Origin: an uncultured Eubacteriales bacterium
GTDB lineage: Bacteria > Bacillota > Clostridia > Christensenellales > Aristaeellaceae
DNA length: 64,000 bases
Assembly: GCA_902764875.1 (NCBI GenBank)
Contig: CACWXP010000009.1
Span: 1 to 64,000 of the forward strand
Direction: 5' to 3'
The position numbers and the translations under genes are program-made. Positions 23,571-61,190 of the stretch are shown here, one piece after another (the first letter of the stretch is position 1; each line of letters starts with the position of its first letter). The notes below the pieces were generated by a model. The model saw only the letters and a program-made list of their open reading frames with translations, did no database searches and had not been told where the DNA came from.

Positions 23571-24200
23571 TCAATTGCCGCTGGCCTTCTCCGCCAGCAG
23601 GCTGTGGAAAACATCCTCCTCAACAATCACGAAGGGCGTATAGCCGTAGTCCGCGTTGTTCATGCCCAGGCGGTCCAGTTTGAACTGAATCTTGCCTTCC
23701 TGCACCTGCGCGGGGATGCAAACCAGTTCGTTTGCCACGCAGAGCAGCACGTAGAGGGTTTCGCCTTCCAGGTGTCCGTCATAGTTGCTGTCCAATCCGT
23801 CAAGGGTGACCTCGAAGTACATCGTGCTCTTGCACACATAGTCGTCGTTCGAGAAGATGCCCAGCACGAAGTCGTACAGCGACTTCCGATCGCGGACCAG
23901 CGCCCAGAGCATCTTGCATACATCGCTCTGCGTGCTGTCGATCAGTGCCTGATAGATCTCCGGCTTCGCGGCTGCCGTGCAGTTCCTGCTGTAGGTTTCC
24001 AGATCCTCGTCGCAGCCGTACTTTTCCTGAAGTGCCGGATCTGTCAGCATCGCATAGTGCGTCGTGGCAAGAACCTTCAGCACCGCCGAGGGAGCAAACA
24101 TGCCGTACACCCGAATCTTGCTGATTCTGTCTTCCAGCATGCGCCAGCCGTCGGGAATCTCTTCCGGTATTTCTTCAAGGGATACATTGACCGGTTGCGC
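23571..24200 (-). other. Unique Cys-bearing C-terminal domain of the giant protein
   Basis: About 205 residues from PVNVSLEEIPEEIPDGWRML to the end. It is unlike the repeats: globular-looking, with six Cys (YGCDEDL, SRNCTAA, DVCKMLW, YVCKSTM, LLCVANELVCIP). The remaining ten thousand residues contain very few. I know no family for it. It could be a capping, anchoring or receptor-binding tip. Confidence 0.6.
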
Positions 24201-27200
24201 GGGCCTGAAGAAGTTCACCAGGTATACATTGCCCCGGATGGAACTGACATCCACGATGCCGTCAACCGTGATGCGCAGCGGACTGTCGCTGGTGCCGACG
24301 TTGTATACGGCGCGGATCTTCAGGTTGTGTGCCGTAATCATGCCGTCGGGTGAGGTGTTCATATTGCCCGCGGTATAGATCGTCACATCATTGGCCAGGA
24401 TCTCACGCACGATCATGTCGTCGGACTTGTTGTCCAGGGTCACGTTCTCGCCGATCGCCGTAATCTCGTCCACATGGGTAACGATCGCGATGTTGCCGCC
24501 GGCCCGGATCTCCAGGTCGTTTACGTCTGCCTGCGTGCCGTCCTTCTGGGTCACGCTGCCGTCAGTCTGGATGTTCACGTTGCTGCCCACGACGTCGTCC
24601 AGCACCACATTGCCGGTGTTGTTGATGGTGGCGTTGTCTCCGCGAATGCCCAGCTCGCTGGTATTCGTCGTCATGGCGCCGCCGCTGCTGTTGCCAATTG
24701 TGGAAGTGGCGTTTCCGGTGGAGATCGCATCCAGCGTCGCAGATCTGCCGGTGATGGTCGGATCGCCGCCCACGCCGGTGATGTCGCCGTGGCTGGTCAG
24801 TGACACGTCGTTCCCCGCGTTGATCCGGTTGATGTCCAGATTCTCGGAGGTCCCGATGTTCACGTTCTGGCCCGCGTTGATGGTGATCACGCCGTCGGTG
24901 TCCACGGTCAGGGCGTTGTTGCTCTGTCCGTTTCCTTCGCCGGGCTGTCCGCCCAGGCTTCCCTCGCGGGAAGTGATGTTGGCGTTGCCCGTCACGCGGA
25001 TCGCCGCGTCGCCTTCCTTGGCGCCTTCAGCCCGAACGCTGCCGGTGCCGCTGGTGTCGCTCTTCACAAGGTTATCTCTGCTGGAACCCGCCACGGCTGT
25101 ATCCACAGCGTTGTTCGCGTTGGTTGCCGTCGTTGCCGCTGCATTGGCCGCGGTCGTTGCGTCATTCACCATCGCCTGGGCTTCTGTCGTTGCCGCCTTC
25201 GGATCATCCGTGCCGGTCAGAGCCTTCAGCTCTTCCTTCAGGTCCTCAACCTTGTTGACTTTGTCATTCAGCGTATTGGTCGTGTTGTCCCGGCCTGCCT
25301 TCGTGTCATTGACGTCCTTGGTTCCGTCGGTGGCCGTTTTCTTTCCGGTGTTGGATTTCACGTAGCTGTCTTTGGCGGTGTTTCTGTCGTTCCTTGCGGT
25401 GTCTTCCGCCGCTTCGGCAGCTGCCAGGTCGTTCACCAGCTTGTCAACTTCCGCTTTATAACTTGTCGCGTCCTCCAGCGCCTTGTCCGCCGCTTCCTTC
25501 GCGCTCTGTGTGTCCGCGGCGTTGGCGGTGGCGGTCGCCAGCTTGTCGGCACTTTCCTTCGCCTTTGTAGCGTCAGCCAGTTTCTCGTTTGCAGCCTTCA
25601 GATCCTGATCGGCGAGTCCCTTTTCTGTGATCGCTTCCTCCAGCGTCTTGCCGGTTTCGGCTTCCGCCTTCGCCTGAGCCTGGTTGGCTTTGTTCAGCGC
25701 AGTCTGGGCTTCCGCCTTTTCCTTCTGAGCGTCGGCCAGTTCATCCTGTGCATCCTTCAGCGTTGCTTCAGCTGTTGCGATATCCTGTGCGTCTCCGTTT
25801 GCTTTCGCTTCGGCGAGCGCGTTCTGCGCTTTGGTAACAGCTTCCTGCTTGTCTTCCAGCGTCTCGTTGGCGGTTTCCAGGTCTTCCTCAGCCTTCGTCA
25901 CCGCGTCCGCCGCAGTCTTCAGCGTATCTCTGATCGCTGTGGCTTCGTCATCAACCTTCTGAGCCGCCTGCTGTTCCGCTGTCGCGTCGTCCAGGGCTGC
26001 CTGCTTCTCAATCGCGTCCTTTGCGGCTGCCAGGGCTTCCTTCGCCAGCTGCGCGTCTTTCTCCGCGTTGGCCTTCTGTTCTGCGGTCGCGTCAGCAGGC
26101 AGGTCCTTCAGGGCCTTCTCCGCTTCCGCGGCTTTCTGCAGGCGATCCTGCATGTTCTCGACCAGCTGCTTGTCCGCTTCAGCCTTCGTCAGAGCGGTCT
26201 GGGCTTCGCCCAGCGCCTTCTCGGCATCCTCGCGGTCCTCGGTAGCCTTGTCCAGCTTCTTGCCGGTCTCCTGTTCGGCCTTGGCCTGATCCTGGTTGGC
26301 TTTGTTTAGGGCAGCCTGGGCTTCCTTCTCTTCCTTCTGTGCGTCAGCCAGTTCATTCTGCGCCGTCTTCTGTGCGGCTTCCGCCGTCTCCAGGTTGTCC
26401 GTCGCTTCCTTCAGTTTGTCCTTCGCTGCTTCTTTTTGTTCGTCCGTCGCGTTCTTATCCGCCATGACTTCATCATAAGCAGCTTTCTCGGTATCGTATG
26501 CGGTCTTCGCTTCTGTTGCCTTGGTCTGCGCGGTTTCAGCCTGTTCCTTAGCGGTTTCCGTGGCGGTCCTGGCATTTTCCAGATTTTCCTCAGCCTCGGC
26601 CACCGCGTCCGCCGCTTCCTGCAGCTTCTGCTCGTCTGCTCTTGCGGCATCCGCTTTCGCCTGGGCTGCGTCACGATCCTCCTTGGCTTCCGTCGCGGCG
26701 TCGATCAGCGCCAGTGCGTGCCGGGCTTCCTCAACGCCCTTCTGGGCCGCGTCCACAGCCACCTTCGCGTCGGCCACGTCTTCCGGTTTGGATTCCGGAT
26801 TGTTCGCCTTGGTCTGATAATCCGTGTAAACCTCGTGCAGCTTCTCTTCCGCGCCGACGATCTGTTCCGTAGCGGTCAGCCGTTCGGCCAGCGCTTCGTC
26901 GGCAATTCTCTCCGCGTCCGCGATGTCCTTGGCTTCCTTCAGTTCAGCCTGGATCGCCTCGAGCTCAGCCTTTTCTTCGTCTGTCGCGTTCGGATCAATC
27001 ACGAACTGGTCGTATTCTTCCTTCGCCTTTTCGGAAGGCGTCTTGGCGTTTTCGTCCGCCTTCGCCTTCTTCTGCTCGGCTTCTGCCTTCGCCTGGGCTG
27101 TGGCTTCCTGCGTCTTCGTCGCTTTCCACAGGTCCGGGTCAGCAGCTGCCAGCGCGTCGTCGGCCTTCGCCAGGTTCGTGTTCGCCGTTGTCAGATTGTT

Positions 27201-30200
27201 ATTCGCCGTCTTCAGCGTATTTTCTGCCGTTTCAAGCGCACCCTCCGCCGTTGTCAGCGTGCTGTTCGCTTTGCTCAGTGCCGTATCAGCATCAGCCTTC
27301 TCTTTCGCGGCTTCGTTCAGCGCTACCCGGGCATCGACCAGCTTCTTCCAGGCAGCTTCCTTTTCTTTTTCAGTCTTCGCCTCGTCATAGGCCTTCTTGG
27401 CGTCACCATAGGCCGTGTCAGCTGCGTCATAGGCTTCCTGCGCTTCTGTCGCGGCGGTATTTGCCACGTCGGCCGCCTGCTGCGCTTTTGTCACGGCAGC
27501 CTCGGCTTTTGTCACCTCAGCCTGAGCCTCATCAGCCGTCTGCTGCGCTTCTGCCTGCGCCTTGACCATCTTCTGATAGTCGTTATAGGCATTTTTCGCC
27601 GTCTGCGTGGCCGTGTCTTTGGCGTTCGTCACTGCCTGCGTCGCCGCGTTATCCTTGGCTGTCGCGTCGTCCAGCGCTTTCTGTGCTTCCTCAGCCGCCT
27701 TCCTGGCGTCTTCCTGGGCCTCCAGGGTCTTGACGGCATCCGCGCTCTTTTCGCGTTGGTCGCGGTATTCCTGCTGAGCGTCCAGAAGATCCTCGGCGAT
27801 CTGCAGTTTCTCTGCCGCGCGGTCGCGGGCAGCCTCCGCGTTCTGAACGTCCTGATTCATTTCAGCCAGCTTGTCCGCTTCCTCCTGGAATTCTTCCTCG
27901 GTCACGTTGGCCTTTGCGCCTTCCAGAGCGTTCGCGGCATTCTCCGCTGCCAGGTCCGCGGCTTCCTTGTCGGCCGTGGCCTTCTTAAGATCCTTCTCCG
28001 CCTGCTCCAGGTCTTTCTCTGCCTGCTCCAGGTTGACTTTCGCTGCCGCCTTTGCTTCGGGCGTCGCGGTCTCGTCCTCCATGAGTGCTTCATAAGCCGC
28101 TTCCGCGGTGTTATAAGCAGTCTCCGCTGCGGTCTTCGCCTCTGTCGCTTCGGTCAGCGCTTTTTCCGCCTGCTTAGCGGCGGTCTTCGCGGCTGTGTCC
28201 GCCGCGATGGCTGCAGCAAGTTCGGACTCATGCTCGGCGTCGTCCAGCGCGTGCCGCAATTCGTTCAGTTCGCGCTCAGCCTCCGTCAGCTCAGCCTGTG
28301 CCGCGGTCACCTTGTCCAGCGTTTCGCCCAGACCGGCGTTTCCGGCATCCAGAATGTCTCCGGTAGCCGCCAGGTTCAGGTTGCCGTCGGCAACGATCTC
28401 GTTCACGACAATGCCGCCTTCCGCGTTGTTCACGAAGACGTTCTTGCCGCTGATCGTAACGGTACCGCCATTGGCTTCATCCGTGTCGATCTGGAAGGCT
28501 CTCTGCGCCGTACCGATGTCTCCGCCGTTGCGTAGCGTAACGCTGCCGTTGGACAGGGCGGAACCGGTCAGCGCGATTTCCTTGGTGCTGATCACGGTGA
28601 TGTCACCTGCGCCCTTGTCGTCGTCTGTGGTGATATCCACATGGTTGGCATCGGTGTTCAGGTTCAGGTGCAGGTCGCCTTCGCTGATCAGGCTGATGTT
28701 GCCGTTCGTGTTGACGGTCATCTCGCCGTCCACTGCAACGCGGACGGTCTTTTCATCGCCTTCCTCGCCCGCGGTTCCGTTCAGCACACCGTTCACAGCG
28801 TTCAGCACCGTGTTGCCGCCGCTGCGGATGGTATTCGCGGTGATGATGCCGGTATCGGTGGTCACATTCACGTTTCCGCCGGCTTCGAGGTTCCCCAGTG
28901 TGATATCACTGGAATCAGTATACAGAACCACGTTACCGCCTGCCTGGATGTCTTCCGAATTGATATCGCCGGTGCGTTCTGTTACGTAAATGTCTCCTTT
29001 TTCTGTCCTCAGATTCAGGATCGTGTCATCAGCCTGATTATCTTCGCGGTATTCGCGAAGCGTATCCTTGCGCATCGCGATGATCGCTGTACCCGTCCCG
29101 TCGCCGAGCGTCAGGATCGGTCTGGCTTCATAGCCATCTCCGTCGGCGTCGTACAGGCTTCCGCGCGGGCTGTTGGCCACCGTGTAGTTCTGTACCATGT
29201 ATGCTCCGGTGGTTTCATCCTTAACGATGCTCCCGCCAAACTGGGTCTTGCCGGTTTCTCCGTCGGGGCTGACCACATAGGCAGTGTACACGAACCGATC
29301 CGTGTTGGCCGTCGCTTCCACCAGGAAGCTCTTGTCCTCGGTGCCGATGGAATCACGGGCTTCCAGTGTGATATCCCTGCTGTGAATGTACTCTCCTTCT
29401 CTATACCAGCCGGGAATCGGATTCCCTTCTTCGTCCGTCTTGTCTTTGTTCTCTCCCGTAAGGATAGAGCCGGACTTGTTGGTCACGCTCAGGTTGCCGT
29501 GTTCGCTGACGATGTTGCCGATGGTCAAATCGCTGTCGTGCAGAGCCACGGTGGCCAGCGTCGCAACCGCTTCGGGGATCGTCATTTCCTTGTCCACAAC
29601 CACTTCGATGTTGCCGTCGTTGTGAATGTTGACTTCGCCGCCTTCGATGGCTTCGCCGATCATCACGTGCAGGTCGCGGGTATCCACATCCAGGTGGGTA
29701 TTGCTCAGCTCCCAGCCCATTTCGCCGATCTTCACGCTGCCTTCGAGGGCAGTCTGCATAACCTTTTCAGCTGTGGTGATCGCTTCTTCGGCATCTTCCG
29801 CTGCTTTCCTGGCGACTTCGGATTTACCTTCAGCGATCTCCAGCGCGGTAGTGGTCTCCTTCACCTTGCCCTCAGCCACTGCCACTGCCACGTCCGCCAT
29901 GTCCTTTTCAGTCTGGGCTTCCGCAACAGCCAGTTCCGCCTCAGCCAGTGCCTTCAGGGCACTCTTCCGGTTCGCGTCGGTCGCGGCATCCGCGGCAGCC
30001 ATCGCTTTATCACGCTTCGTCTCTGCTGCCTTCAGCGTTTCTTCCGCTTTCAGAGCAGCATCATCCGCTTCTTCGGCTTCCTTCACCGCTTCGTCATAAG
30101 CAATCTGCGCTTTCTGCTGTTCAACCAGCGTCAGCTTGTAGTTCTCCGCGGCTTCGTTGTATTCCGCGTACTTAACAGCAGAAGTGTTCTCCTGTTCAGC

Positions 30201-33200
30201 TTTGCGGATCTCGTCCGCCAGCGCCTTCACTTCCTGCGTCAATCTGATGGCCGTCTCCAGGGAGACTTCGGAATAAGCGTTGCCTTCCTGACCGGCTTCC
30301 AGCGCCGCAATGGCCTCCTCAACCCTGGCCATGGCTTTGCTGTAATCCTTGTGTTCGTTATCTTCCTTTGCCTTCTCTGTCGCAATCGCGGTCTCCGCGG
30401 CCGCAAGAGCGCTTTCGGTGGCAGGCAGCCACTCGGACTGCTTCGGCGCGGTATGTCCGTCCGCGCGTACGCTGTCGTCGCGGGTGTAATCCGCCTGGGT
30501 CGCGGTGCCGCGTTCGATAACGCGGTTCAGGGCCAGGATCGTCGGCTGAGTTGCCGACGCGGTTTCCCAGTTCTCCTCGATTGTCGCTTCAGCCTGCTCA
30601 ATCAAAGCCTGCTGCGCTTCAATCTTTGTTTCGTAAGCGGCCACCTTGTCTTCCTGGGTCGGAATCGTCTTGGTCAGTGTCTTCTTCCGTGCGATCAGCT
30701 CATCCGCTTCCTCGATCTTCCCGGTCAGCGCTTCATACTTCGCATCCATGGCATTCAGCGCGGCCCGGGCTGCTGTCACCGCAGTCTCGGCCGTGGTGCG
30801 ATCGTCGTCGCTGGCATCCTCCGGCAGTCCGTAAAGCGCGTCTTCCGCGTCTGCCACAGCCTTCTTCAGAGCCTTGTAATCCGCACTGTTCGGATAGGCT
30901 TTCACGGCCTTCTGGATTTCAGCCTTCAGCGCGTTGTACCGGGCGTCCATTGCCTGATCCAGCGCGGCCTGGGCTTTATCCTGAGCCGCAGCCTTCTCTT
31001 CTTTGGTCGCATATTCTTTGTCCGCAATCGCGTTCAATTCGGTCTGTGCATCCGCCACAGCCTGATCAAGCTTACCGTAGGCGTCACTCTCCAGGTATGC
31101 GCCCAGGATGTCGTTTACATCCGCGTCGGTTCCCAGAGCGTTCTGCTTCGCAGGAATGTTCGTCTTCAGCGTCTCCGCCTCGTCCTGCATGTTCTCCAGC
31201 ATAGCCTTGTCGTAGGCGCGGTCTTCGTACAGATCGCGGATGGCTTTCTGCGCGTCGGTCTTGATGGTGGTGTTCTTTTGAATGGCTTCGGTGGCGTCGG
31301 CCAGTTCCTTCTGCGCCGTCTCCAGGTCGTTGTTCAGGCCTTCATAGTATTCGTTATAGGCCTTTTCGGTCAGTTCCGTGATGTAGGCCGTATCCTTGGT
31401 CATCAGGTCAAGGATCAGTTCGTCCGCCTTAACGACAGGCTTTCCGTCCTCACCTGCGACCGGTTTGCCTTCTTCATCTTTTTCAACCGCTGTCATGACG
31501 ATCTTTCCGTCCTCAAGCAGCTGATTCAGGACCGTTTCTTCGCCGGTCCAGGTCTGCAGACCGTGCTTCTGCAGTTCTTCCTTCGCGGTTCCCCTGTTCA
31601 GGATGGCGTCCGCCAGGATCTCCTGCAGGGTATGCACAACGGGCTGCTCAGACGGCTCAGTGTGTTCGGCACCGGATTCACCTTCAGAATTGCCGTTTTC
31701 GTTTTCATCCGTTTCGTTTTTGGCGGGAGCGTTGTAATACGCGCTCTCTTCGTCCGCCAGCATCTTCTTCGCGGCATCCACGAAGTACTCGCCGAACACT
31801 TCCAAAATGAGAGCTTCATCGCGGGCCGCCTGCTGGGCTGCCGCGGTCTCGGGATCAACGGGCTCGCCCTGGCCCTGTTCGTTGTTCTCTTCCGCCGGTG
31901 CCGTCGCCATGGCGAGAATATAGCCTTCCAGTCCTTCCTGGTCTTCCAGTTTCTTCTGGTCGACAATATTCACCCACGCGGGCTGTCCGTCTTCTCCCTC
32001 GCCATAGATCGCGTCGCACCGATCCATCACCCAGCTGACCAGGGTTTCGCCTTCCGGGATGTCCGTGGACACGGTGTAGTAGCTTTCCTCGTCGGAGAAG
32101 ACATAGTCTCCCGCAATCACGGCGGCGTCTTCCGCGCTGTAGCCCTGGCTGATCAGGTATTCACGGGTTTCTTCGATCAGTCTTCCTTGTTCGTCTGCTT
32201 TTACGCTGTTCACGTACAGATTCTTCACCTGTTCGATATTCAGCGTCAGTTCTTCCGGAATATCAATGAACAGATTGCGGTTCACCGTACCGATGTCGCC
32301 GCCCGCGCTCAGCGTAACGGAAGCCACTTCCGGCATATCCACATAAACTGTGGTATCGCCGTCATAGGTACGCTCGTCCATGAAGCGGATTACAGGGCTG
32401 CGATCTTCATTTGTGCCCTTATGCAGCACATCGATATCCCTGCCCGCTGCAATGCGAAGGTTGGTTTCCTCGCCGTTGATGATGTCAAACAGCACATCCT
32501 CGTCAACGGAGCGCAGGCCGACATCCGCGAAGTTCGATTCAATGTTCGCAATCTTCAGGGTCTTGGCGCTGGTCGCGCTGAAGGAGGAACGTTCGCCTGT
32601 ACCGGTGGTTCCGTGCAGGGTTCTGCCATGTTCGCCGCCTTCCACCAGCACGTCTGCCACAGTGATGTTGTCTCCGACATAATTGTTCACATCATACGCC
32701 GGTGTGGACTGCATGTCGTCCGCGGAATCGTAATCCCGCAGGACATACACGCCACCCTCTGTGGAGGTCAGAGTCACATGGCTGCCGTTGGTGATGGTCA
32801 GTTCCCGCTCAGCGATCGGATTCTCTACGCCATTCAGGTTGTAAAGGACATTGATGTCGCCCTTCGCTGTGGCGTTCACGTTGCTTCCGTTGGTCACAAC
32901 CCAGTTGGCCATGCTGATCATGCTTTCGGGCTGATCGGCGGAAGCGCCCAGCAGACGCGGTGCTGCAAGCTTCTTCGTCCTCAGAACAATGGGGCTGCTG
33001 ATACTGCTCAGCGTCTCGCCGGAAGACTTGATGTTCACGTCAGAGTGATCGATTTTTGCTTCATAAATTGTCACATGATCCCGTACATCAATATCAACAT
33101 TGCTGTTGAGCACATAGAGATCAATCGAATTGGTGTCTTTAAGGCTATCCGCTACATCGTGTGTTGTGACCTGAACGCTTCCGTTGAGGGAGTTCACATA

Positions 33201-36200: not shown

Positions 36201-39200
36201 TTGAACGGCTGCGCTGCTTCTGACAATTTCGATGGTATCGTTGTCCTTGACCAGCATGTTTTCCGGAAGGTTACTGACAGCCTTGTATTCGTCTTCCTTC
36301 TGCTCGATATCCAGGTTGACGACATTCACCACTTGATCATTGACATAATGACCGTTTTCGTACTCAATGGAAAGGGTATAGATGCCGGTATAATCCTTGC
36401 CGATTTCAAGCTTTTGTGTATCCGGATCGAAGGTTACGTAACGGTCGTTGCCCTCGGAGTCCGTGTCTGTGTCAAGAATCTTCTTGCCATTGACGGTTTC
36501 AATGGGCGTATAACCGTTCAGATCCGTAATCTGCCCGTCGGTCAGGATAAACTGAGTGCCGTCGGGAAGCTCATACACCTTGACAGTATGACCATCTTTA
36601 TCCGTGCTGGAAACGAGATACCGTTCCAGCGTGTTGCCACTGATTGTGGCATCACTGTTGACCTTGTTGTCCAGGAATGACACGCCGAAGTTCGGAGTAT
36701 CCACAGTCACCCCGGAAGCGCCGGGCAGATATTCCACTACGACCGTTGGTTTGAAGCTCAGATCCAGCAGACCGCCGGCCACGATGTTCTGGAGGTTCAC
36801 TTTGCCGTCGCCAAACGTTGGAGTCACGAAGTCGCCTTCGATGCTGTTGGTCCGCGTCACTGCGGCCATCACGGGCTCGAAGTATACGTTGCCGGATGCG
36901 TTGATGGAAACGTTCGAATTCTCGGTCAGCAGCACCTGGAAATACGTGTTCTTCTTCTGATCGGCGATAATCGTGCCGCCGGATTCATTCTCAGGATAAG
37001 TATTTTGGGTCGTTCCGATGTTCCTGACGCCTGTGATGTTCAGACCCTTGGTCCAGATGGGGCTGATGGGGATAGTAATCTTTTTGTTTGTTGTCGTTGT
37101 CAGCAGATTGCTGGCGATCAGGTCGCCTTCCGTTCCGGCAAATCCCTGCGCCGCTTCGCCCAGGAGCCAGGTAATGTTCAGCGTACCGTTTTCATTGGCA
37201 ACCACATTGCCGAACTGCACGTCGCTGCCGTTGTAGGTGGTAATGTTGATTGCGCCGGCCCTTTCCCGCATGTCAAACGCAGGGAGAACAACGGTTTTGC
37301 CTTCGTAGTAATTCCGGACGTCGATCCTGCTTTCACTGGTCGTGATTTCTTTGAAGTTCCCGCCGCGGACGGAACCCGTGGAGATCGGGAGTGCTACCAG
37401 GCCCGACACTACGCCGTCCTTGCCGGTGATCTTTCCGCCGGAAGACCCTGCCACATGCGCTTCGCCCATGACGTTGATCTCCAGGAGGGTCGGCAGCACG
37501 GCATGGTCAACCGTTCCGCTGGCGCTCACAGATCCGCCGTTCCGGTTGAAGCTGTTTATGTTTTCTCTGCTTCGTACTACAAACACGCCTTTCCGGCGGG
37601 CATCCACGCTGGTGCTGATCCGGCCGCCATATTTGAAGGAATTAAAGTTGAATGTATTACCCTCAAGCTTAATGCCATTTCCGGTCACATTGCTGTTGGC
37701 GGATCCGGTCAGTCTGGATTCGGAAACCACCTTGCCCGCCAGGCCTTTCAGTTCGGAAACTGCGTTAACCGTTACGCTGCCTTTGGTGGGATTGGTGCTG
37801 GACCAGATATCGGCTCTGTCGTATGCCTGCACGGTGCTGCCTTCAAGGTTAACTTTGCTGTTCACGTTCAGTGCCAGTTCGCTGTAGGCCTTGGCCTGTC
37901 CGCCGGCGCCCTTGATCTTCGCCACGGAATAGTCGTAAACGTTCAGCTCCTTCAGGGCGGCAGAGACGTTCATTGTGCTGGCGTTTAGAATGGAAGAACT
38001 GATGTCGGCCTGCGCAGACAGGTTAAGCGTTGACGTGTAGGCACGGGATACGGGGGAACCGATCAGCCCGGCTGCCGAGAAGTCACCCACCGTGGAAACA
38101 TTTCCTTCCGCCACGTTCGCCGCGATGTTCAGCGTGCCGAATTCCGCGTACAGTTTCGCGTTTGAAAGCGACATCTGAACAGCGTTTGTGATATACGCAT
38201 TGGCTCTTGCGCCACCGATACCAACCAGGCCCTTGGCGCTGCCGTCGGACTTGGTGGTAACGCTGTCGTTCCGTCCGCCTTCTGCCAAAACGTTCAGCGT
38301 GCCGTAGCGGGAACGCAGTTCGGCGTTATTCCCGGCGGAAAGAGTCACGTTCTTTGACAGGCTGGAATACGCGCCGAGGGATCCGCTGGCAAACAGGCCG
38401 CCGGTGTTGGCCTTGGTATAGGCGCTCATACGCGTGTTGTTGGATTCCGCGGTCAGGGAGACGTTGCCGTAGGCAATCACTTTAGCAGCGTTGCCGAAGG
38501 TAACCTTCACGTTCTCCGTCATCCGGTTCTGTGCCTGCTTGGAGTCTGCGGAGCCGAGAGCACCGACGCTGTTGCCGCTCACCAGTGTATCTGCCTTGGC
38601 GCTGTCGGTCGCCTTGATGCTGATTGTCCCGGATTTACTTTCAATATGAGCGTTTGCACCCACATTTGCTTCTGTTGAATAATTGCTCTTGGTCGTCACG
38701 TTGTTGGAACCGCCGGAGACCAGCGACACCTTCAGGCCCTGCGTCATGTTGGCCGTGATGTTGCCTGTATTCTGGGCAAGCATGTTGATCGCGCCATCGG
38801 CAAGGATCTTCGCATTCTCTCCGACGTTCACCTTCACGGTCTGGGCCCTTCCGATGCCAACCCGGGCCTCAATGCTGCCGCCGCCGAAAGAGGCGAGGGA
38901 AACACTGGTGCTGGAGGCGCTTTCGGAATAGGAATTGGTGCTGCCCGTGGCGTTGACATTCACGCTGCCCCTTGCGTTCAGTGTGAAGGCATTGCCCCTG
39001 CCGAGGCCGGCAAGGGTGCTGTCGCCGGTATCGCTCTGGGCGAAGACGCCCTGTGCGCTGACCGCGCTGACAGACAGCGGTTTCAGGGCCACAGCCCTGG
39101 CGTCGGTGGCCGTCTTGGCGTTCACGGTGACGTTGTTGGCGGTGATCGTTCCGTTGCTGTTGCCCGCCAGATAAGCCTCGTTAGTGCCTCTTGAGGTGGC

Positions 39201-45200: not shown

Positions 45201-48200
45201 GGCGTTGTTTCCGATAGCCGCGTTGATCTTGTTGTTGAAGGTCATCACCGCGATGGAACCGCCGACCATCACGGAACCGCCGGCGCCGGCGCCGGCCGAA
45301 ACCGCGGCGCCGATGGCCTCGGCGTAATAGTTGGTGCTGGACAGGAAGTTCAGCAGGTCAACCGCCTTCAGAAGGTCTTCGCTGGTGATATTGATGCTGA
45401 CCTGATAGCCGCTGCCTTCCTTCTTCATGTCGATGGGACCGGTCTCCGCGTCGCTGTCCGCGCCCGTTGAGTTGGTCACCGCGTCCGTAATGCCGTAGGG
45501 CAGCTGATAGTCCTTGATGGTAACCATTCGTTTGGCCGCCAGAACCGCCAGGCTGTTGCCGGTAATCCGTGCGCCGTCGCCGATAGCCGCGTCAACCACG
45601 TTGTTGCTCACAATGACCGCCACGCTGGCGCCCACGCCCACGGATCCGCCCTTGGAGATGCTGATGCCGCCGGCCCGGATCGCCATCTTGCTCTTGTCCG
45701 TCGCTTCGACAGCGATCTTATGGGTGGAAACGCTGATGTCGTTGCCGATCTTCGCTTTGGTCTCAGCGCTGCTCACCAGTACGGAAATCGCGCCGCCGAT
45801 GGATGTTCCACCCGAACCGGCAACCGAGCCGGCGATCGCCTGCGCCGCCAGCAGTCCGTTATACTTGCCGGTGGTATTTTGCGTCAGATCCGCCTGCACG
45901 TTCACGTCGCCGTCTTCGCTGGTGAGTTCGGTGTCATCACCCACCGAGACATTGGCCTCGTTGCGGTTCACGCTCACTGCCACGCCCGCAGCAATCGATG
46001 TGCTGCTTTCGGAGAGAGACATGGCAATGCCGGTACCCAGGGTACGGAAGTTGCCTTCGTTGCCCGCCAGGATGTTGATGCCGTTAGCGGCATTAATCTT
46101 GCCGGAAACGCTGGTATTGACCTTATGCTTGGAGATGGTCAGGCCCACCGCGGCGGCCACTTGCACGCTGCTGCCCTCGGAACCGCCTTGCATGCCCAGG
46201 TTCTGATCGGTTGCGCCGTTTGCCTCGGTGCCAGCTTCGCTGATGTCGTCGTTTGCCCCGTTTGTGCTGGTCTTTTCGCCGACGTTTTGGGTCCGCAGCA
46301 CGTTGGTGGACAGCGCCGCATTGGAATTCGCTTTTTCGCCGTCAGCTTTGTCGCTGTTCTTGTCCAGATTGCTGTTAATGTTGTCGGCGGTTTTGTTATC
46401 CTTCTTGTCGTCCGAGCTGTCGCTGCCGGATTCACTCCAATAGGTTCCGCTCAGAATCTTTTCTGCAGTTTCCTCGCCCCCATGGAACTTGTCAATATAC
46501 CGCTGCATATCGGCGCCCATGGCGGTGGCAATGGCGTTGGATTCATCTTCGCTGCTGCTGGTGCCGACGATATGGGCTGTGCCCTGTTCCAGGTGTGCGT
46601 CGCCCTTAAAGTCCACGTCCACGCCGGTGCTGATGATGTTGATCGCCACAGCGGCGCCAACAGCAGTGCTCTTGCCCATGGCAAAGCCGCTGGCCCGGGT
46701 CACGGCGTTGCCGCTCTCCTCGGCCGTCAGCAGGAAGTTGGCCTTCGGGCTGTCGTCCTCGGTTTCGTTTTCGGTTTCTTCATCTGTCTGATCTTCGGAG
46801 CTTTCTGCGGATTCGCTGCTGTCTTTCGCTTCTTCAGTCTCTTCGATCGCGATGCTGTCTCCCCCGTGGGTGATGATGGATGTGTTTTTCCCCACGCTGG
46901 CGGAAATGGAACCGTCCAGGATGTTCAGTGCCACGGAAGCATCGATGGAAACGTCGCTGGAGGCATTCTGGCTGTTCTTGTCGATGGGATCGGTACCGGA
47001 AACCGCGGAGGTCTCCGTCTCCCGGTCAGCCTTCGCCCGGATCGCCATGGCGTCGGCATCGACCACGCGGCCATCGCCCAGAGCGGCCTCGGTGTTCACT
47101 TCTCCGTAGTTGAAGGAGAATGACGCACCGACGCCAACGGAACTGCCCTTGCTGTTGGTGTCGGTAGTCTTCGCGTCAGCGGGAGCATCCTTATAGGTGG
47201 CTTTCAGGGTCACAGCGCCCTTCGGCATATAGAAGACATAGGTGGTTTCGTCGGAGTTGGAGTGATCCTTGACGACGATCTGCTTCTCCTCGCCGTTAAA
47301 TGTATAGGTCAGTTTGTCCAGAACCTTGCCGTCCTGGTTCTTGACCTGCACCTCAACCAGATCATCATAGGCCGCCTGCGCGCCGTCACGGTCCTTGACC
47401 TTGACGGAAACATTGTCGCCGGAGGGCAAGCTGATTGCGTAAGTCACCGGATCGAACACGACATTCCAGGTAACCTTCGCCTTGTCGTCCAGGTTATCAA
47501 TCGTGGGCAAGCTGATCGTGCCGTCATCGCCGACAGTTACTTCCTCGGTCTTCTTGTCGCCGTCCTTGTCGGTGTAGTTGTAGCTGACCTTCTGAGGTAC
47601 TTTATAGCCCTCACTTGCCGTCAGCTTGATCTTGCCGCCGTCCTCCTTCACCTCGCCGCCGGGCGTGGACATGAAGTCATGCTGGCCTTTGCTCAGCACA
47701 AGGCTGTCCCGCTGGCTGCCAGTCTCTTCGGTTTCGGTCTCGCCGGCGCCTTCGTTCTTGTCCGCTTCTCCATCCGCTTCCAGGGCGCCGGAAGCGGTCG
47801 TCGTAACCTTCTGATCGTTGACCGCAATGATATCGACTTCCCCACTGGCCTCGATGGAAGCTTTCTTGCCGATTACTGCACCGTTGTCATCCGTGATGTC
47901 GGTCTGTGATGTCCCGTTATAATTTTCAATAATGGCTTTGGTCGTTCCGTTCAGCACAGCCACCGCCACGCTGCCGGCCACGCCCACATCGCCGCCGCCC
48001 GCGCCGGCAATGGCCTGGGTGGTGATGAGGTGCTTCTCGTGATCGTTGTTCTCCACGGGCTTGATGCTCAGGTCAACAAGCTCGTTCAGGGTATCCAGCG
48101 CTGTGGTCGTCAGTGCCAGGCCGGATTTCTTAACCCCTTCAATGAGGGCGTCCTTCAGATCCGTGGCCAGGGTTCCACCCTTGATGTATTTGGTAAACTG

Positions 48201-55394: not shown

Positions 55395-55401
55395 GTTCAT
55401 T

Positions 55402-55407
55402 CCTCCC
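55402..55407 (-). promoter_or_regulatory. Ribosome binding site deciding the giant gene start
   Basis: GGGAGG on the minus strand. Spacing is seven nt to the ATG at 55394 and one nt to the ATG at 55400, which favours the shorter N terminus. Confidence 0.8.
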
Positions 55408-55507
55408 GGGAATATGTGTCGTTTGGTTTTTTCTTACACACAATCCTGAATAAAACTGGTGAATAACGCTTTGGGGTGGTTGATCCGTGATATTGGGGAG
55501 TGGGTAC

Positions 55508-56935
55508 TTAGTGCTTCAGGGACTCCTCAAGGTCCGCGACATACTTGTCCTGATCGCCCATCGCCATGTAGATCTGCGCCCGCTGATAGTAGGTCTGGCC
55601 CAGATTGTATTCGCTTTCAATGCAGGCCGTCAGGTCGGCCAGGGCGCCTTCGTTGTCGCCCAGCGCGATCAGCGCATAGGAGCGATAGAACTGGGAAGCG
55701 TCCTTGTTGTAGTTCTTTTTGATGCACTCGGTGAAGTCATCCCGGGCGCTTTCGTTCTGCCCGGCCTGCAGGTTGGCCAGGCCCCGGTTAAACCGGCTGT
55801 CGTCCACGGCCAGGTTGTTGTTGATGCAGGCCGTGAAGTCTGCAATGGCGGATTCGTTCTCGCCGACGGACAGGTAGCAGACGCCGCGGTAGTAATTGGA
55901 AATGTCAACAACGTCTTCCACATCTTCCGCTTTGATTTCCTGAGCGGTCGTTCCCTTCGCCTCGGCGTCCTTTTTGGCTTCTTCGTTCAGAGCCGCAACC
56001 TTCTGGGCCTTCATGTTGTCCAGGTAAGCGGTGAAGTCCACGATGGCATTGGCGAACTTTTCCTGACTCACGTAGCAGATCGCCCGGTTGTACAGCGCGT
56101 CGGTCACAAAGGATTCCTTCTCGATGGATGCCGTGAAGGCCTCGATGGCATCATCAATCTTTTCCAGCAGCATGTTGCACACGCCCAGGTTATAGCGCAG
56201 GCCGTCATAATCCTGATCCTTCACCTGCTTGAAATAGTCCAGCGCTTTCTCGTAGTTCTCCTGGCGCATGTAGCATACGCCGATGTTATACCGTGAGGAG
56301 GGGCCGTAGGTCGGATTGTTCAGGATGCTCGCGAATTCTTTGATCGCTTCTTCGTACATGCCGTTTTCCATGTTGTAGATCGCGGTCTTGTAGGTGGCTT
56401 CCTGCTGGCTCTGGCTGTCGCTCTCCGCGTAGATCTTGTAGCTTTCCAGGGCCTTGTCCGCGTTGCCGACGGCGCTGTAGATCTCCGCCTTCACCTGGTA
56501 GAGGGAATTGTCCCCGGTCAGATCGATGTATTTCTGCAGCGCGGCCGCGGCGTTCTCATAATCGCCGAGATCAGAATAGACTTGGGTCTGAACCAGGTAT
56601 GCTTCACTGAGGTCTGCCTTCACACGGACCGCCTCGTCCAGCTCCGCCAGGGCTTTGTCGTACTCCTGGTGAATCGTATGCACGCAGGCAATCTTCAGAT
56701 GCACATCCGCGTACACATCCGGGTTGGAAGTTTCATCGCAGTACTTCAGGCAGGCGTCCAGGTACTCCATTGCCTTGTCATAGTCCTCTTTCCCGATATA
56801 GGCGAGGGCCAGTGCATAGTTGGCGTCAAGCTTCTGGGAATCATAGGTAATATCCTGGGCAAACGCCGCAGAACCCGTCACCAGCGCCAGCACCAGGGCA
56901 AGCAGAACTGCAACCTTCAGAAACCGTTTGATCAT
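55508..56935 (-). CDS. Exported TPR-repeat protein (475 aa), giant operon
   Basis: A classical signal peptide, MIKRFLKVAVLLALVLALVT ending GSAAFA, precedes about a dozen TPR units. Clear repeats include RYNIGVCYMRQENYEKALDY, YNLGVCNMLLEKIDDAIEAF, YNRAICYVSQEKFANAIVDF, YYRGVCYLSVGENESAIADF and YYQRAQIYMAMGDQDKYVAD. A charged insert (KKDAEAKGTTAQEIKAEDVE) breaks the array near residue 330. No lipobox Cys follows the signal. The gene ends 107 nt before the giant gene and begins 56 nt after the other TPR gene, with GGGAGG seven nt before ATG. It is probably an extracellular or wall-associated scaffold helping the giant protein fold, cross the wall or attach; this is inferred from position. Confidence 0.85.
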   Translation of the reverse strand: MIKRFLKVAVLLALVLALVTGSAAFAQDITYDSQKLDANYALALAYIGKEDYDKAMEYLDACLKYCDETSNPDVYADVHLKIACVHTIHQEYDKALAELDEAVRVKADLSEAYLVQTQVYSDLGDYENAAAALQKYIDLTGDNSLYQVKAEIYSAVGNADKALESYKIYAESDSQSQQEATYKTAIYNMENGMYEEAIKEFASILNNPTYGPSSRYNIGVCYMRQENYEKALDYFKQVKDQDYDGLRYNLGVCNMLLEKIDDAIEAFTASIEKESFVTDALYNRAICYVSQEKFANAIVDFTAYLDNMKAQKVAALNEEAKKDAEAKGTTAQEIKAEDVEDVVDISNYYRGVCYLSVGENESAIADFTACINNNLAVDDSRFNRGLANLQAGQNESARDDFTECIKKNYNKDASQFYRSYALIALGDNEGALADLTACIESEYNLGQTYYQRAQIYMAMGDQDKYVADLEESLKH

Positions 56936-56991
56936 TGTGTGTGTCCTCCCTTAATCTCTACGGAACGCTTTAGGCTCCGTGAATCAACTTG

Positions 56992-58419
56992 TTATTCCTT
57001 CGCGGGTTCATTCTTTTCCGCTTCCAGGCGTTGTGCCTGCCGGGCGGCTTCCTCCCGCAGGGAAGCATTCTGCCCGTTTTCGGTCACCCAGGCGAAATCC
57101 GCCAGCGCCTTTTCCGTCTCCCCCAGCTGCATGTGGCACACGCCCATGCTGTAGCGGCAGTTTTCCTGTTCCGCGCCGCCGGCCTCCGCTGCGGTGAAAT
57201 CCTCCAGCGCTTCGCTCCAGCGACTCTCCGCCAGCAGGCTGCTGCCCCGGAGATAGCGGACATAGGGATCGTCCTTCTCTTCCAGGGAAAGCGTAAGCAC
57301 CTCCGCCGCCTGGGCAAAGTTCCCAAGCTTCATGTACGACGCGCCTGTCAGCTGGCACAGGTGGGCATAATCCAGCGGCTTCAGTTCCGCCCGCACTTTG
57401 CCGGTCACGTCTTCCACGCCGGCCTGGGCTGCGCCGGGGTTTTCGCCCTGCCGGATCCGTTCAATCAGCCGCTCCCCGTATTCGCAGGCCCGCTCATGGT
57501 CCCCGGTCAGGGAAGCGCAGATGACCACGTAGTAGTACAGGGACCAGGGATCGGTTTCGCTGCCGCTCAGGGCCAGGGTAAAATACCGGTTCGCCTTGGT
57601 GTAATCCCCGGCTCGGAGGAATCCCGTGCCCAGCAGGGTGCCGGTAATCGCCCGGTTTTCCTCATGGTCCTTCAGGTACCGTTCGCCATCCTGTTCCGCT
57701 TCTGTCATCTTCCCCAGCTGCACGTAGCAGTAGGCCCGATCCAGCAGGTATTTTTCGTCGCCGCCGTCCTCCAGCACCCGTGTCCAGAGGTTGGCCGCCG
57801 TGGCATACTCGCCGGCCGCCTCATAGATGTTCACAAGTTCCGGCAGCAGCGTCGGGGAATCGCCGGCCGCGCTCAGGCAGGCGCCCGCGTCCCGCACCGC
57901 ACCCGCGGTATCTCCCAGGTTCAGGCGGACCTGCGCCCGGGTCAGCACCGCTTCCACATAAGGCGTCACCGCGATGCCGAGGTCCAGCCAGTTCAGGGCC
58001 TTTTCGTATTCACCCAGCAGCACGTACAGATAGCCCATCCGCAGATACTGGGTCGCGGATTCTTCCTCGCTGCCCTCAAAGACTTCCAGCGCCTTTTCCT
58101 GATAGGCCGCCGCTTCGTCGTACCGGCCCTGGGCGATGGCAATCTGGATGGCCAGATCGTAATCCTCAAAGCTGCGTTTGCCGCTCAGCAGATTCCTGGC
58201 AAAATCGCTCATCCGCTCAATCCTCGAACGGTTGGCATACCGGTCGTTCTGCAGCAGCTGCTGCGCCGCCAGGCGGACGCTCCGATTTTCGTCCCGGGTC
58301 GCGTCGGTCTGCACGCCCGTTTGCCGGAAAACCAGGATGCCGGGGATCATCGTAATGACAATCGCAATGGCAATAATCCGCAATGCCAGACGGTGTGTTT
58401 CCGGTTTTGTCCGAGCCAT
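56992..58419 (-). CDS. Membrane-anchored TPR-repeat protein (475 aa), giant operon
   Basis: A short basic N terminus (MARTKPETHRLALR) leads into one transmembrane helix at about residues 13-32 (IIAIAIVITMIPGILVF). The rest, with TPR-like helical pairs, is predicted outside: YDEAAAYQEKALEVFEG, LRMGYLYVLLGEYEKALNWL, YVQLGKMTEAEQDGERYL, SYMKLGNFAQAAEVLTLSLE and YSMGVCHMQLGETEKALADF. A GTG seven codons earlier is in frame, but AAAGGGGAAAG points to the ATG at 58419. With that start it is 475 aa, equal to the second TPR protein. It is the first gene after the promoter and LytTR-like boxes, so I infer it is the leading gene of the regulated giant protein operon. Confidence 0.85.
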   Translation of the reverse strand: MARTKPETHRLALRIIAIAIVITMIPGILVFRQTGVQTDATRDENRSVRLAAQQLLQNDRYANRSRIERMSDFARNLLSGKRSFEDYDLAIQIAIAQGRYDEAAAYQEKALEVFEGSEEESATQYLRMGYLYVLLGEYEKALNWLDLGIAVTPYVEAVLTRAQVRLNLGDTAGAVRDAGACLSAAGDSPTLLPELVNIYEAAGEYATAANLWTRVLEDGGDEKYLLDRAYCYVQLGKMTEAEQDGERYLKDHEENRAITGTLLGTGFLRAGDYTKANRYFTLALSGSETDPWSLYYYVVICASLTGDHERACEYGERLIERIRQGENPGAAQAGVEDVTGKVRAELKPLDYAHLCQLTGASYMKLGNFAQAAEVLTLSLEEKDDPYVRYLRGSSLLAESRWSEALEDFTAAEAGGAEQENCRYSMGVCHMQLGETEKALADFAWVTENGQNASLREEAARQAQRLEAEKNEPAKE

Positions 58420-58481
58420 GGCACTTTCCCCTTTCAACACACCGTTTTGGCATTTTTCCCCAATGCTATTTTACGGTACAT

Positions 58482-58510
58482 ATAATAGAAAGGACAGAAA
58501 AAAGGGACAA
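58482..58510 (-). promoter_or_regulatory. Promoter of the TPR-TPR-giant operon
   Basis: TTGTCC (58505-58510), 17 nt, TATTAT (58482-58487) on the minus strand, about 63 nt before the ATG at 58419. The -35 departs from consensus, as expected for an activated promoter. Confidence 0.65.
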
Positions 58511-58535
58511 GTTGTCTGCGAACAGTGACAACTTG
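58508..58535. promoter_or_regulatory. Inverted repeat overlapping the -35
   Basis: CAAGTTGTC-N10-GACAACTTG, perfect nine-bp arms. It covers the -35 and could be a second regulator site or a hairpin. Confidence 0.65.
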
Positions 58536-58554
58536 CAATTTCATCGCGACTTTT

Positions 58555-58583
58555 ATGTAACTTTTTAAAAAAGTGATGTAACT
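58555..58583. promoter_or_regulatory. Tandem LytTR-like boxes
   Basis: ATGTAACT at 58555-58562 and again at 58576-58583; on the minus strand AGTTACAT twice, 21 bp apart start to start. Two same-face direct repeats with a GTT core are typical for LytTR regulators (AgrA, VirR). They lie just past the stop codon of the LytTR gene and upstream of the TPR promoter. Confidence 0.6.
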
Positions 58584-58595
58584 ATTGGACTGATT

Positions 58596-59312
58596 TTACC
58601 CTCTCCGGATCCGGGTGAATTTATAGTTGAGCCACTGCTGCCGGACTTCCTTGCCGTTCCGGCTGTGCATGGGCAGCCGGCTCCCCGTATCTGTCAGGCA
58701 GATTTTCTCGCTCATCTGAACCACATGATCCATGTTCACGGCTACGCCCTTAATGATCCGGATGAATCGGTCGTCCAGCCGATCCTCGGCATCGCGGAAT
58801 GTCATCCGCGTGCGGTAGGTTCTCTCGTTCCTGTCCGTAATGCAGAGGTAATTGCCGTCCGCCTCCACGGAAACAATGTCTGAAAGCGGAAGGCTGTAAT
58901 CCCGGCGGTCGGCGGTGAAGGACAGCTGCTTTTCCTGTTCTGTACGCAGATGCAGCAGATGATCCAGCGTGCGGAAAACCGCCTCCCTGGAGCAGGGCTT
59001 GATGAGATAGTCCGTAGCGAAGACGGAAAAGGCGTCGGGCCGGTGCTCCTCGCTGGTGGTCATGAAGATGATGGCCGTGTCGTCATCCTGTTCTCGGATC
59101 ATTTTTGCGGTTTCTATGCCCGTTAGCCCGTCCATATAGATATCCAGGAACACAAGGGCAAAAGCATAGGGATGGTAGCCGGCCAGCAGGTCTTCCCCGC
59201 TTTGGAATTCCTCTGTGCTGATCTCCAGGCTGTGCACGGTGGCATAGTCCCGGAGCACCGCCGCCAGCCCGGCACGCTCGGCGGCAGCATCGTCCACAAT
59301 CGCAATTCTCAT
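58596..59312 (-). CDS. LytTR-family response regulator
   Basis: A 238-aa two-domain regulator. The receiver domain has the acidic pair Asp7/Asp8 (MRIAIVDDAA), phosphoacceptor Asp57 (LVFLDIYMDGLTG), Thr85 (IIFMTTSEEH) and Lys105 (YLIKPCSRE). A LytTR DNA-binding domain occupies about 135-235 (IVSVEADGNYLCITDRNERT, RFIRIIKGVAVNMDHVVQMS). It overlaps the kinase gene by 4 nt (ATGA). Its probable target is the box array directly downstream, before the TPR-giant operon. Confidence 0.93.
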   Translation of the reverse strand: MRIAIVDDAAAERAGLAAVLRDYATVHSLEISTEEFQSGEDLLAGYHPYAFALVFLDIYMDGLTGIETAKMIREQDDDTAIIFMTTSEEHRPDAFSVFATDYLIKPCSREAVFRTLDHLLHLRTEQEKQLSFTADRRDYSLPLSDIVSVEADGNYLCITDRNERTYRTRMTFRDAEDRLDDRFIRIIKGVAVNMDHVVQMSEKICLTDTGSRLPMHSRNGKEVRQQWLNYKFTRIRRG

Positions 59313-60694
59313 TTTCTTCGTTTCACCCCCCCCATTTTGCCTGAAGATCCTTTATTTTCAACGGTTTTCACGTTATCTGACAGTTCGTCTTCCGCCAGTG
59401 GGATGGCAATGTTGGAATAGAACTGTTTGCCTTCATGATAGAATTGGGCAACCCCACCGTATTTCTCCGCCGTAGCAGTGACTGAGGACAGTCCGATGCC
59501 CTCGCCCTTCCGGTTGGTGGACTGATAAGTTCCGTTTCTTTCGCGGACATACCCGTCAAAGCTGTTCACCGCGACGATGTACAGCTGTACTCCGCCTTCC
59601 ACCAGGATGGTGAGCTGAATTTTCCTTTCTTCCGCCCGTTTGCAGGCAATCACCGCATTCTCCAGAATATTGCCCACCATGCCGCACAGCTCCACGTCAC
59701 TCAGCGGCAGCACATCCGGCAGGGTGACCTTCACCTGGAAGGCAATCTGATGCTGCTGACAGATATGGGCAATGTAATTCAGCAACGCGTTCAGCGCTGT
59801 GTTACCCGTGTAGGTGGTGATTTCCTTCACCGGCAGCTCCGCCACATATTGTTTCAGATACTGACCCAGCGTATGATAGTCCCCCGCTTCGTACAGTTCA
59901 TACAGGGTGCGGATGCTGTGGCGGAAATCGTGGCGCGTCCGTTCCGACGTTTTGATATACCGCTGCTGGGAGTCAAACTGGTTCATCTGCATTTCCAGCA
60001 GACGGCTTTGCTCCCGGGCTTCCATCGCGATCTTCGTATCCCAGATTGTGACATAAAACGCCGCCGTCTGGAGTCCCCAGATCACCAGCATCGTGCCATA
60101 CGCAGCTGTCTGCAGCATCATCTGCCCCCGGTCGTAATAAATGTCGTCATGGACCGGCCGCAGCAACAGATTGCAGACAAAAAGGGCCAGGGAGAGGGCC
60201 GTGATGATCACCCAGCTGCGCCGCGGCATCGGCTGATCCACCACCCGGCTGCCATACCTGAGAAATGCGTTCGCCAGAAGCAGGACAAAAACGCACCCGA
60301 GGCAGAGAAAGATCGCGGAGGATTGAAGCATATCCGTTTTTTCACTGAAGGACAGACCCAGCAGAGCATCAATACACTGGGACAAATTGGACAGAACGGA
60401 CAGCAGGCCCAAAGCAACGGAAAAGACGCCCAGCACCTTGAACAGAGGTGCCTTGACACTCCACCGGTAACCCGAGAAGCAGATCGCGAGCAGCGGGAAA
60501 AGCAGATCATTTTCACCCAATGGGAATACCGTGTTCAGCCAGGCCGCGCCCGCGGCCAGCAGCAGGAGCCCCGGAATTTCCACCAGCAATGTCCGGTGCA
60601 GCCCGAAACGAAGCTGATTCCGCATAGGCATCAGGCACAGCATCGCGGTCGGGACGATAATCAGATACGACAGAAAATACTGCAGGTACAGCAT
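59309..60694 (-). CDS. AgrC-type sensor histidine kinase with GHKL ATPase domain
   Basis: A 461-aa membrane kinase. About six to seven hydrophobic helices fill residues 5-215. A coiled linker leads to the H-box RTRHDFRHS (His255). The ATPase domain has N-box GMVGNILENAVIACKR and G-box RKGEGIGLSSV, typical for the HPK10/AgrC class that senses peptides or membrane states with its transmembrane part. No AgrD-like peptide or AgrB gene is visible nearby. It is first in a two-gene unit with the LytTR regulator; the C-terminal tail is lysine-rich. GGAGG precedes the ATG. Confidence 0.92.
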   Translation of the reverse strand: MLYLQYFLSYLIIVPTAMLCLMPMRNQLRFGLHRTLLVEIPGLLLLAAGAAWLNTVFPLGENDLLFPLLAICFSGYRWSVKAPLFKVLGVFSVALGLLSVLSNLSQCIDALLGLSFSEKTDMLQSSAIFLCLGCVFVLLLANAFLRYGSRVVDQPMPRRSWVIITALSLALFVCNLLLRPVHDDIYYDRGQMMLQTAAYGTMLVIWGLQTAAFYVTIWDTKIAMEAREQSRLLEMQMNQFDSQQRYIKTSERTRHDFRHSIRTLYELYEAGDYHTLGQYLKQYVAELPVKEITTYTGNTALNALLNYIAHICQQHQIAFQVKVTLPDVLPLSDVELCGMVGNILENAVIACKRAEERKIQLTILVEGGVQLYIVAVNSFDGYVRERNGTYQSTNRKGEGIGLSSVTATAEKYGGVAQFYHEGKQFYSNIAIPLAEDELSDNVKTVENKGSSGKMGGVKRRK

Positions 60695-60755: not shown

Positions 60756-60784
60756 ATTATATTTTCAATTCCCTTTCAAGTCAA
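60756..60784 (-). promoter_or_regulatory. Promoter of the kinase-regulator pair
   Basis: TTGACT (60779-60784), 17 nt, TATAAT (60756-60761), about 60 nt before the kinase start. Close to consensus, suggesting steady basal expression of the sensor system. Confidence 0.8.
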
Positions 60785-61145: not shown

Positions 61146-61190
61146 GTATCGCATGATTTATCAAGAACGAAAGATGAGCCGGGTTCTTTC

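Follow-up and report, generated by a model that had tools for sequence, protein, structure and literature searches.

Among the described systems closest to the locus treated here are those of the Fusobacterium leukotoxins. LktA is secreted by two-partner secretion (TPS) through the outer-membrane protein LktB, and LktA-type proteins (NF012206, LktA_tand_53) are built of tandem repeats of 53-55 residues. The locus in question lies in a stretch of 64,000 nucleotides, called the window below, from an uncultured Eubacteriales bacterium (contig CACWXP010000009.1), and comprises the genes of a sensor histidine kinase (HK), a response regulator (RR), two exported tetratricopeptide repeat (TPR) proteins, TPR2 and TPR1, and a giant protein of 10,609 amino acids (aa). 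The reading we favour, which we give about an even chance of being right, is that the locus makes a giant surface adhesin fibre under regulatory control, with dedicated TPR proteins helping its export or assembly outside the membrane. The giant has LktA-type repeats, which in the window score under the cut-off of that family. Unlike for the leukotoxin, no Omp85 match was found in the genome and no TPS domain was recognised by Pfam, and the giant is adjoined by TPR proteins. It also differs from the two-partner exoproteins FHA, HMW1, EtpA and HxuA: Foldseek gave no significant match for the repeat model (best E 2.4), the coils of this model carry strands of about 20 residues, and no transporter partner was found.

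HK and RR resemble the AgrC/AgrA pair of Agr-type systems in their domain make-up, and direct repeats 20-21 bp apart precede the proposed target promoter, a spacing that we take to be like that of known LytTR sites. Unlike in Agr-type systems, no agrB or agrD was recognised by eye among the nearby open reading frames (ORFs), a search of the whole genome not having been made.

Giant solenoid adhesins as such are an already known kind of protein. Giant1-5 of Apilactobacillus kunkeei are described in the main text on them as Gram-positive surface proteins of 3,000-8,000 aa, and they share with the present giant a signal peptide, a beta-solenoid and helical repeats (PMC12863079). Their solenoid, according to the same text, is N-terminal and resembles serine-rich repeat proteins, whereas here LktA-type repeats fill a large central part; the term TPR is absent from that main text (PMC12863079). 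The giant ORFs of Omnitrophota are likewise very large, one of them 39,678 aa, and adhesion has been proposed for them; as the main text presents them, they differ from the giant here in having predicted transmembrane helices and other domains, and neither TPR nor tetratricopeptide appears as a term in it (PMC10066038). No description of a TPR-giant system was found in the open-access literature searched.

Organization of the locus

Five adjacent genes on the minus strand, in the transcription order HK, RR, TPR2, TPR1, giant, make up the locus, as the original prediction of five same-strand genes in a row had it.

59309..60694, minus strand: HK, GHKL (AgrC-type) sensor kinase (Pfam)
58596..59312, minus strand: RR, response regulator with a LytTR DNA-binding domain (Pfam)
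56992..58440, minus strand: TPR2, 482 aa counted from GTG
55508..56935, minus strand: TPR1, exported TPR protein of 475 aa
23571..55400, minus strand: giant exoprotein gene, 10,609 aa, ATG start, zero internal stops

The HK and RR frames overlap by 4 bp, and the remaining intergenic gaps are 155 bp (RR-TPR2), 56 bp (TPR2-TPR1) and 107 bp (TPR1-giant). Pfam recognises HATPase_c_5 (E 7.7e-14) in HK, which has five or six hydrophobic segments by hydropathy, and Response_reg (E 2.5e-17) and LytTR (E 3e-10) in RR; the two are thus a pair of the AgrC/AgrA type, a GHKL kinase plus a LytTR regulator. TPR families are found in both TPR1 and TPR2, each of which combines TPR repeats with a signal peptide or a membrane anchor and is in this sense an exported TPR protein. 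The two had been said to be of equal length, and this holds because an alternative ATG of TPR2, preceded by a Shine-Dalgarno-like AAAGGGG, gives 475 aa. The ATG of the giant is preceded by a Shine-Dalgarno-like GGGAGG. The genome from which the window comes measures 3.27 Mb in 67 contigs and is 93% complete.

Conservation of the gene set

Neighbourhoods were taken from searches of relatives and from one contig scan using the TPR1 alignment. The scan gave 49 loci, of which 12 weak ones (L093-L104) were excluded and 37 used; from 37 matching family genomes, 14 were fetched for neighbourhoods beside those fetched earlier, the TPR1-type loci being partly fetched. Counts are of distinct loci, since some handles denote the same place (L056 and G228, L057 and G317, L059 and G346, L058 and G348, L090 and G027, L078 and G169, and others).

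The arrangement of the five genes is a conserved system and more than chance, because three relatives (G228, G317, G346) keep the order HK-RR-TPR2-TPR1-giant and the genes are under purifying selection. Identities of the G228 proteins to those of the window are 62, 66, 75, 72 and about 50% for HK, RR, TPR2, TPR1 and giant, respectively. When loci are ranked by TPR2 identity, the five closest are the window, G228, G317, G346 and L058 (G348), and the full order is present in four of them; L058 has TPR2-TPR1-giant only, though equally close in its TPR genes, and its genome gives zero LytTR matches at E <= 1e-10. The original prediction had named, as a finding that would speak against it, a lack of conservation of the TPR and kinase genes next to homologous giant genes. 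This does not occur, four of the five closest loci keeping the order. The closest orthologues come from records of gut Clostridia assemblies (red deer, goat reticulum, RUG-series isolates, where RUG presumably stands for rumen), one of which is labelled Christensenellaceae.

Beyond these relatives it is the pair of TPR2-type gene and giant gene that persists. Among the 19 distinct TPR2-type loci examined, window included, the giant is the next gene in 14 (the window, L056, L057, L058, L059, L090, L138, L139, L141, L142, L053, L050, L184 and L185), an exported frame cut by the contig end follows in the other five (L140, L143, L145, L146 and L147), and none has anything else. Two small genes lie between the TPR gene and the giant in L090, and the giant frame is broken near its start in L057 and L139. 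A further TPR2-like candidate, in G234, stands at the end of a 7.8-kb contig, where the next gene is unreadable. The TPR2-type loci span four families of one order, L050, L184 and L185 representing three other families than that of the window. The gene set is sparse in the order, since only 5 of 396 genomes in an order-wide sample pass E <= 1e-30. The full set foreseen at the outset, with two TPR proteins and a kinase pair, is thus found in close relatives and not generally: the kinase pair is seen in 6/19 TPR2-type loci and TPR1 is missing from 6/19.

Selection was estimated as dN/dS by the Nei-Gojobori method. TPR1 and TPR2 give 0.10-0.24 (pairs of the window, G228, G317 and G346), HK 0.26-0.39 and RR 0.21-0.37 (pairs of G228, G317 and G346), and the N-part of the giant 0.21 (2,398 aligned codons, G228 versus G346). 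This shows that the genes are under purifying selection, for the giant in its N-part and between two relatives. The absence of an interruption had been offered as proof that the 10,609-aa frame is selected; no stop is present and selection is purifying, but an open frame alone is weak proof and dN/dS is the better evidence. A chance open frame was rejected in view of purifying selection and the long orthologous frames.

Co-occurrence was examined in 300 family genomes, where the giant (solenoid) profile matches 35, the TPR1 or TPR2 profile 38, and both 28 (hypergeometric 1e-24, uncorrected for kinship). In the window's genus within this sample the same 6 genomes have giant and TPR, and 20 others listed have neither. 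Ten genomes have a TPR match and lack a giant profile region; in five of these (G159, G161, G202, G299 and G317) the TPR gene is followed by the start of a giant or by an exported frame that is cut short. These figures bear on the proposal of a loose neighbourhood, in which vertical descent carries along a giant adhesin and exported TPR proteins that have no relation to it. Related genomes do share inheritance, TPR1-type genes also stand alone in 17 of 33 loci, and a fifth of the giant-bearing genomes (7/35) show no TPR match; but the linkage persists in four families even as the genes ahead of the TPR gene vary, and presence and absence go together within one genus, in the same 6 genomes. We consider loose neighbourhood highly improbable.

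The TPR proteins

TPR1 has a cleavable-type signal peptide with a hydrophobic segment at aa 8-26 (hydropathy, cleavage placed by eye). TPR2 has one N-terminal hydrophobic segment, aa 20-38, after a basic stretch, and no cleavage site was seen by eye; because of this single segment without a visible cleavage site, TPR2 is expected to be anchored in the membrane and to expose its repeats on the outer side. A segment scoring 2.1-2.8 in hydropathy is present in each of the 19 TPR2-type proteins, of which those of L053, L142 and L143 may, as judged by eye, have a cleavage site.

TPR1 and TPR2 align colinearly as paralogues, at a probability of 99.9% over 342 columns in a profile comparison. Against solved-structure sequences TPR1 finds generic TPR, PPR and designed proteins, and NCBIfam gives mostly generic TPR matches under the cut-offs, one TPR end-of-group domain having passed. 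Six TPR2-type loci (L050, L053, L142, L143, L184 and L185) have a single TPR gene. The existence of such versions, three of them in other families, suggests that TPR1 may have arisen through duplication of the anchored TPR gene.

Architecture of the giant protein

The giant is divided into the following segments.

55239..55400, minus strand: long signal peptide, aa 1-54; hydrophobic core preceded by a basic n-region of some 20 residues
48141..49823, minus strand: heptad-like segment with 3.5-residue periodicity, aa 1860-2420
37701..46103, minus strand: LktA-type repeats of 54-55 aa each, aa 3100-5900; autocorrelation peaks at 54 and 55
29721..31403, minus strand: coiled-coil-like helical segment, aa 8000-8560
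25161..28343, minus strand: long coiled-coil-like segment, aa 9020-10080; 14- and 21-residue repeat peaks
24171..25070, minus strand: putative C-terminal beta-helix, aa 10111-10410
23574..24161, minus strand: C-terminal globular domain, aa 10414-10609; three invariant cysteines (6-sequence alignment)

Hydropathy of the signal peptide peaks at aa 19-37, and its cleavage site was placed by eye. The repeats score 22-24 bits against NCBIfam NF012206 in the window, under the 50-bit cut-off, and all six homologous giant segments match this family at E <= 0.1 (best E 2.8e-31). An AlphaFold model of aa 3280-4000 (721 aa) is a beta-solenoid with pLDDT 85.7 and pTM 0.83, whose coils carry strands of about 20 residues; this confident model of one part of the giant lends support to the idea of a fibre put forward originally. 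Foldseek returned nothing significant for the repeat model (best E 2.4), the repeat profile gave zero matches to solved-structure sequences at E <= 1, and a viral structure library gave zero matches at E <= 0.001. For the C-terminal profile the best match to solved-structure sequences has E 0.015; the model of this domain was aligned with VIA-align, the ZU5 beta fold being the candidate examined. A Pfam scan of the whole giant in 8 pieces (E <= 0.01) recognised no wall-binding domain (SLH or other), its sole match being a weak one to Apolipoprotein in the helical part (E 0.0037; 17.4 bits, where the cut-off is 90).

Complete orthologous giants measure 11,243 aa (G228) and 12,992 aa (G189), and other complete giant frames 7,139 aa (G017) and 6,676 aa (G038); the open frame in G344 is 11,241 aa. 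In L057, L073, L139 and L148 the giant frame is broken in an N-terminal low-complexity linker, in or beside short tandem repeats, which is either assembly error or slippage-type variation.

Export and anchoring

The presence of a signal peptide points to Sec export of the giant. Omp85 (PF01103) has 0 matches in the window's genome, at its 93% completeness, while the control search matched in 7 of 14 genomes; the absence of an outer-membrane route, as originally supposed, is thereby supported. Likewise, a Pfam-A scan of giant aa 1-1300 gave no family at E <= 0.01 and hence no TPS secretion domain, although a diverged one is possible, the N-terminus not having been modelled. Two-partner secretion was rejected on these two results; the genome being without an Omp85 match, this route is excluded as far as the assembly goes.

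Sortase anchoring was rejected as well. LPxTG occurs nowhere in the giant, and no LPXTG-like motif is present in its last 150 residues. In G346, a second very large surface protein on the same contig as the locus (L155, C13:19042-31662), a 4,206-aa piece cut at the contig end, finishes with an LPATG-type sorting signal.

The TPR proteins might retain or anchor the finished giant instead of helping its export. In this view a membrane-bound TPR2 and a TPR1 located in the wall zone would hold on to the C-terminal domain, as a substitute for anchoring by sortase or an S-layer. The giant lacks LPXTG despite four sortase matches in the genome, and the full C-terminal domain is found in 6 of the 300 genomes, all of them among the 8 with close TPR2 (E <= 1e-140) plus TPR1; the more diverged TPR pairs of G135, G172 and G202 go with zero matches to it. 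Anchoring of the finished giant would fit this association. Yet G049, whose giant has another C-terminus, still has a TPR2-type gene adjoining the giant, and TPR1, with its signal peptide, shows no wall-anchoring motif by eye. We hold anchoring in place of export help to be rather unlikely.

Regulation

The following elements precede HK and TPR2.

60756..60784, minus strand: promoter-like TTGACT-17-TATAAT before HK, sigma-70-like, 11/12
58555..58586, minus strand: direct repeat AATAGTTACAT / AAAAGTTACAT, 21 bp apart, proposed LytTR operator, site 1
58506..58535, minus strand: direct repeat CAAGTTGTC / CAACTTGTC, 21 bp apart, proposed operator site 2 or weak terminator
58468..58473, minus strand: TAAAAT, proposed -10 of the TPR2 promoter (by eye)

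The repeats were tested with an 11-base word at spacings of 20-22 and several start points, against 300 shuffles. Those of site 1 are 10/11 identical, and their score was reached in 0/300 shuffles, a count that is flattered in the window because the test was run after the 21-bp pairs had been seen; before TPR2 in G303 the figure is 2/300, and the motif of G189 resembles that of G303 by eye. G348 and G344, in which no LytTR gene was seen nearby, have no repeats before TPR2 (289 and 288/300 shuffles), and none were found before HK in the window and G228 or before the giant in the window (300, 297 and 175/300, respectively). The repeats before TPR2 are a likely LytTR operator. The stretch of site 2 also contains a perfect dyad, 58508-58535, and a 116-nt stretch with it folds with a z of -1.83, 10/200 shuffles being as good; the dyad is not apparent in three near relatives, where TTGTCAC / TTRTCAC at 21 bp is. 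The same three have TATAAT at the TPR2 promoter, downstream of the repeats. A simple terminator scan of 55300-61200 found no minus-strand terminator from the HK start to the giant start, its loop limit being such that the dyad at 58508-58535 would be missed.

The association with this type of kinase survives changed gene order: in both G189 and G303 the GHKL kinase gene precedes TPR2 on the opposite strand, and the gene immediately following the giant encodes a LytTR regulator. Between TPR1 and giant of G027 lies a gene of the sigma-70 family (Pfam), and in G362 what looks by eye like a sigma factor is encoded ahead of the TPR gene. The idea that the kinase pair is obligate was rejected, 13/19 TPR2-type loci not showing one. 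At five TPR1-only loci (L040, L041, L070, L081 and L148) there is a nearby response-regulator gene whose receiver part matches the window RR.

It has also to be asked whether the TPR proteins take part in sensing: by binding the giant or its ligand on the outer side they would signal to the kinase and so act as a checkpoint for surface contact or assembly. Of the five closest loci, four have HK and RR next to the TPR genes, and in two further loci the pair flanks the set. The other 13 TPR2-type loci, some on short contigs, are without the pair, and G027 has a sigma-factor gene instead; the TPR-giant pairs therefore do not seem to need the kinase, and a sensing role appears improbable.

Neighbouring genes

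On the 3′ side of the giant, three ORFs at 19203-21426 (minus strand) have zero Pfam matches and are followed by ribosomal-protein genes, the latter named by eye. ARAGORN places a tRNA-Glu at 10569-10658 (minus strand) inside a ribosomal-protein-like ORF (10546-10914); this tRNA is probably a false positive. Upstream of HK, on the opposite strand, are a short ATPase-like fragment (60834-61145) and an HTH-type ORF (61191-62039), both named by eye. Elsewhere, a clostripain-like (C11) peptidase gene, confirmed by Pfam, follows the 7,139-aa giant in the TPR1-only locus L043 (8110-10200), and such genes were seen by eye near the TPR1-only loci L047 (7536-9602), L081 and L086.

Proposed mode of action

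In the reading we favour, that of a regulated adhesin fibre with TPR helpers, the GHKL kinase and the LytTR regulator would switch on the promoter before TPR2, and TPR2, TPR1 and giant would then be made together, presumably from a single transcript. Sec would export the giant by way of its long signal peptide, and once outside the protein would fold into a rod, a beta-solenoid interspersed with coiled-coil stretches and ending in a globular domain. TPR2 would be held by the membrane, its TPR solenoid facing outwards, and TPR1 would be released; both would bind the emerging chain or its ends and prevent misfolding, or hold the giant at the surface until the rod is built. Such a holding or folding role fits, because a TPR2-type gene precedes the giant wherever the next gene is readable.

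Several results weigh against this proposal. The HK-RR pair is linked to 6/19 TPR2-type loci, in two gene orders. The repeats before TPR2 are marginal in G317 (18/300 shuffles) and G189 (29/300), and fall short of significance in G228 (105/300) and G346 (113/300), which are two of the three nearest relatives. At the 33 TPR1-only loci the next gene is a giant in 8, a cut exported frame in 4, another gene in 17 and unclear in 1, the contig ending in 3. Seven giant-bearing genomes of the 35 do without a TPR match, Pfam recognised no adhesin or ligand-binding domain in the giant, and both the linkage and the C-terminal-domain association may reflect shared descent of the module.

A wider formulation, which we offer tentatively and as somewhat doubtful, is that of a single-membrane counterpart of two-partner secretion. 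An anchored TPR protein, later doubled by a released paralogue, would receive solenoid giants of 6,000-13,000 residues as they emerge from Sec and fold or hold them, with the regulator (kinase-LytTR or sigma factor) being swapped.

Significance

To our knowledge, it is not understood how a bacterium with a single membrane can export a rod longer than 10,000 residues and fold it while avoiding jams and aggregation. The compact conserved pair of a TPR2-type gene followed by a giant gene, in four families, would provide a genetic handle on this export and folding, and the proposed operator makes the control of the locus testable. With 35 of 300 family genomes matching the giant profile, giant surface proteins recur as a trait among uncultured Clostridia of the gut. 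In these gut bacteria, which are thought to have no outer membrane, the gene of a surface protein of about 6,000-13,000 residues is directly preceded by one or two genes of helper-like exported proteins, in some cases together with a sensor pair; this conserved gene set looks like a dedicated route for very long surface fibres.

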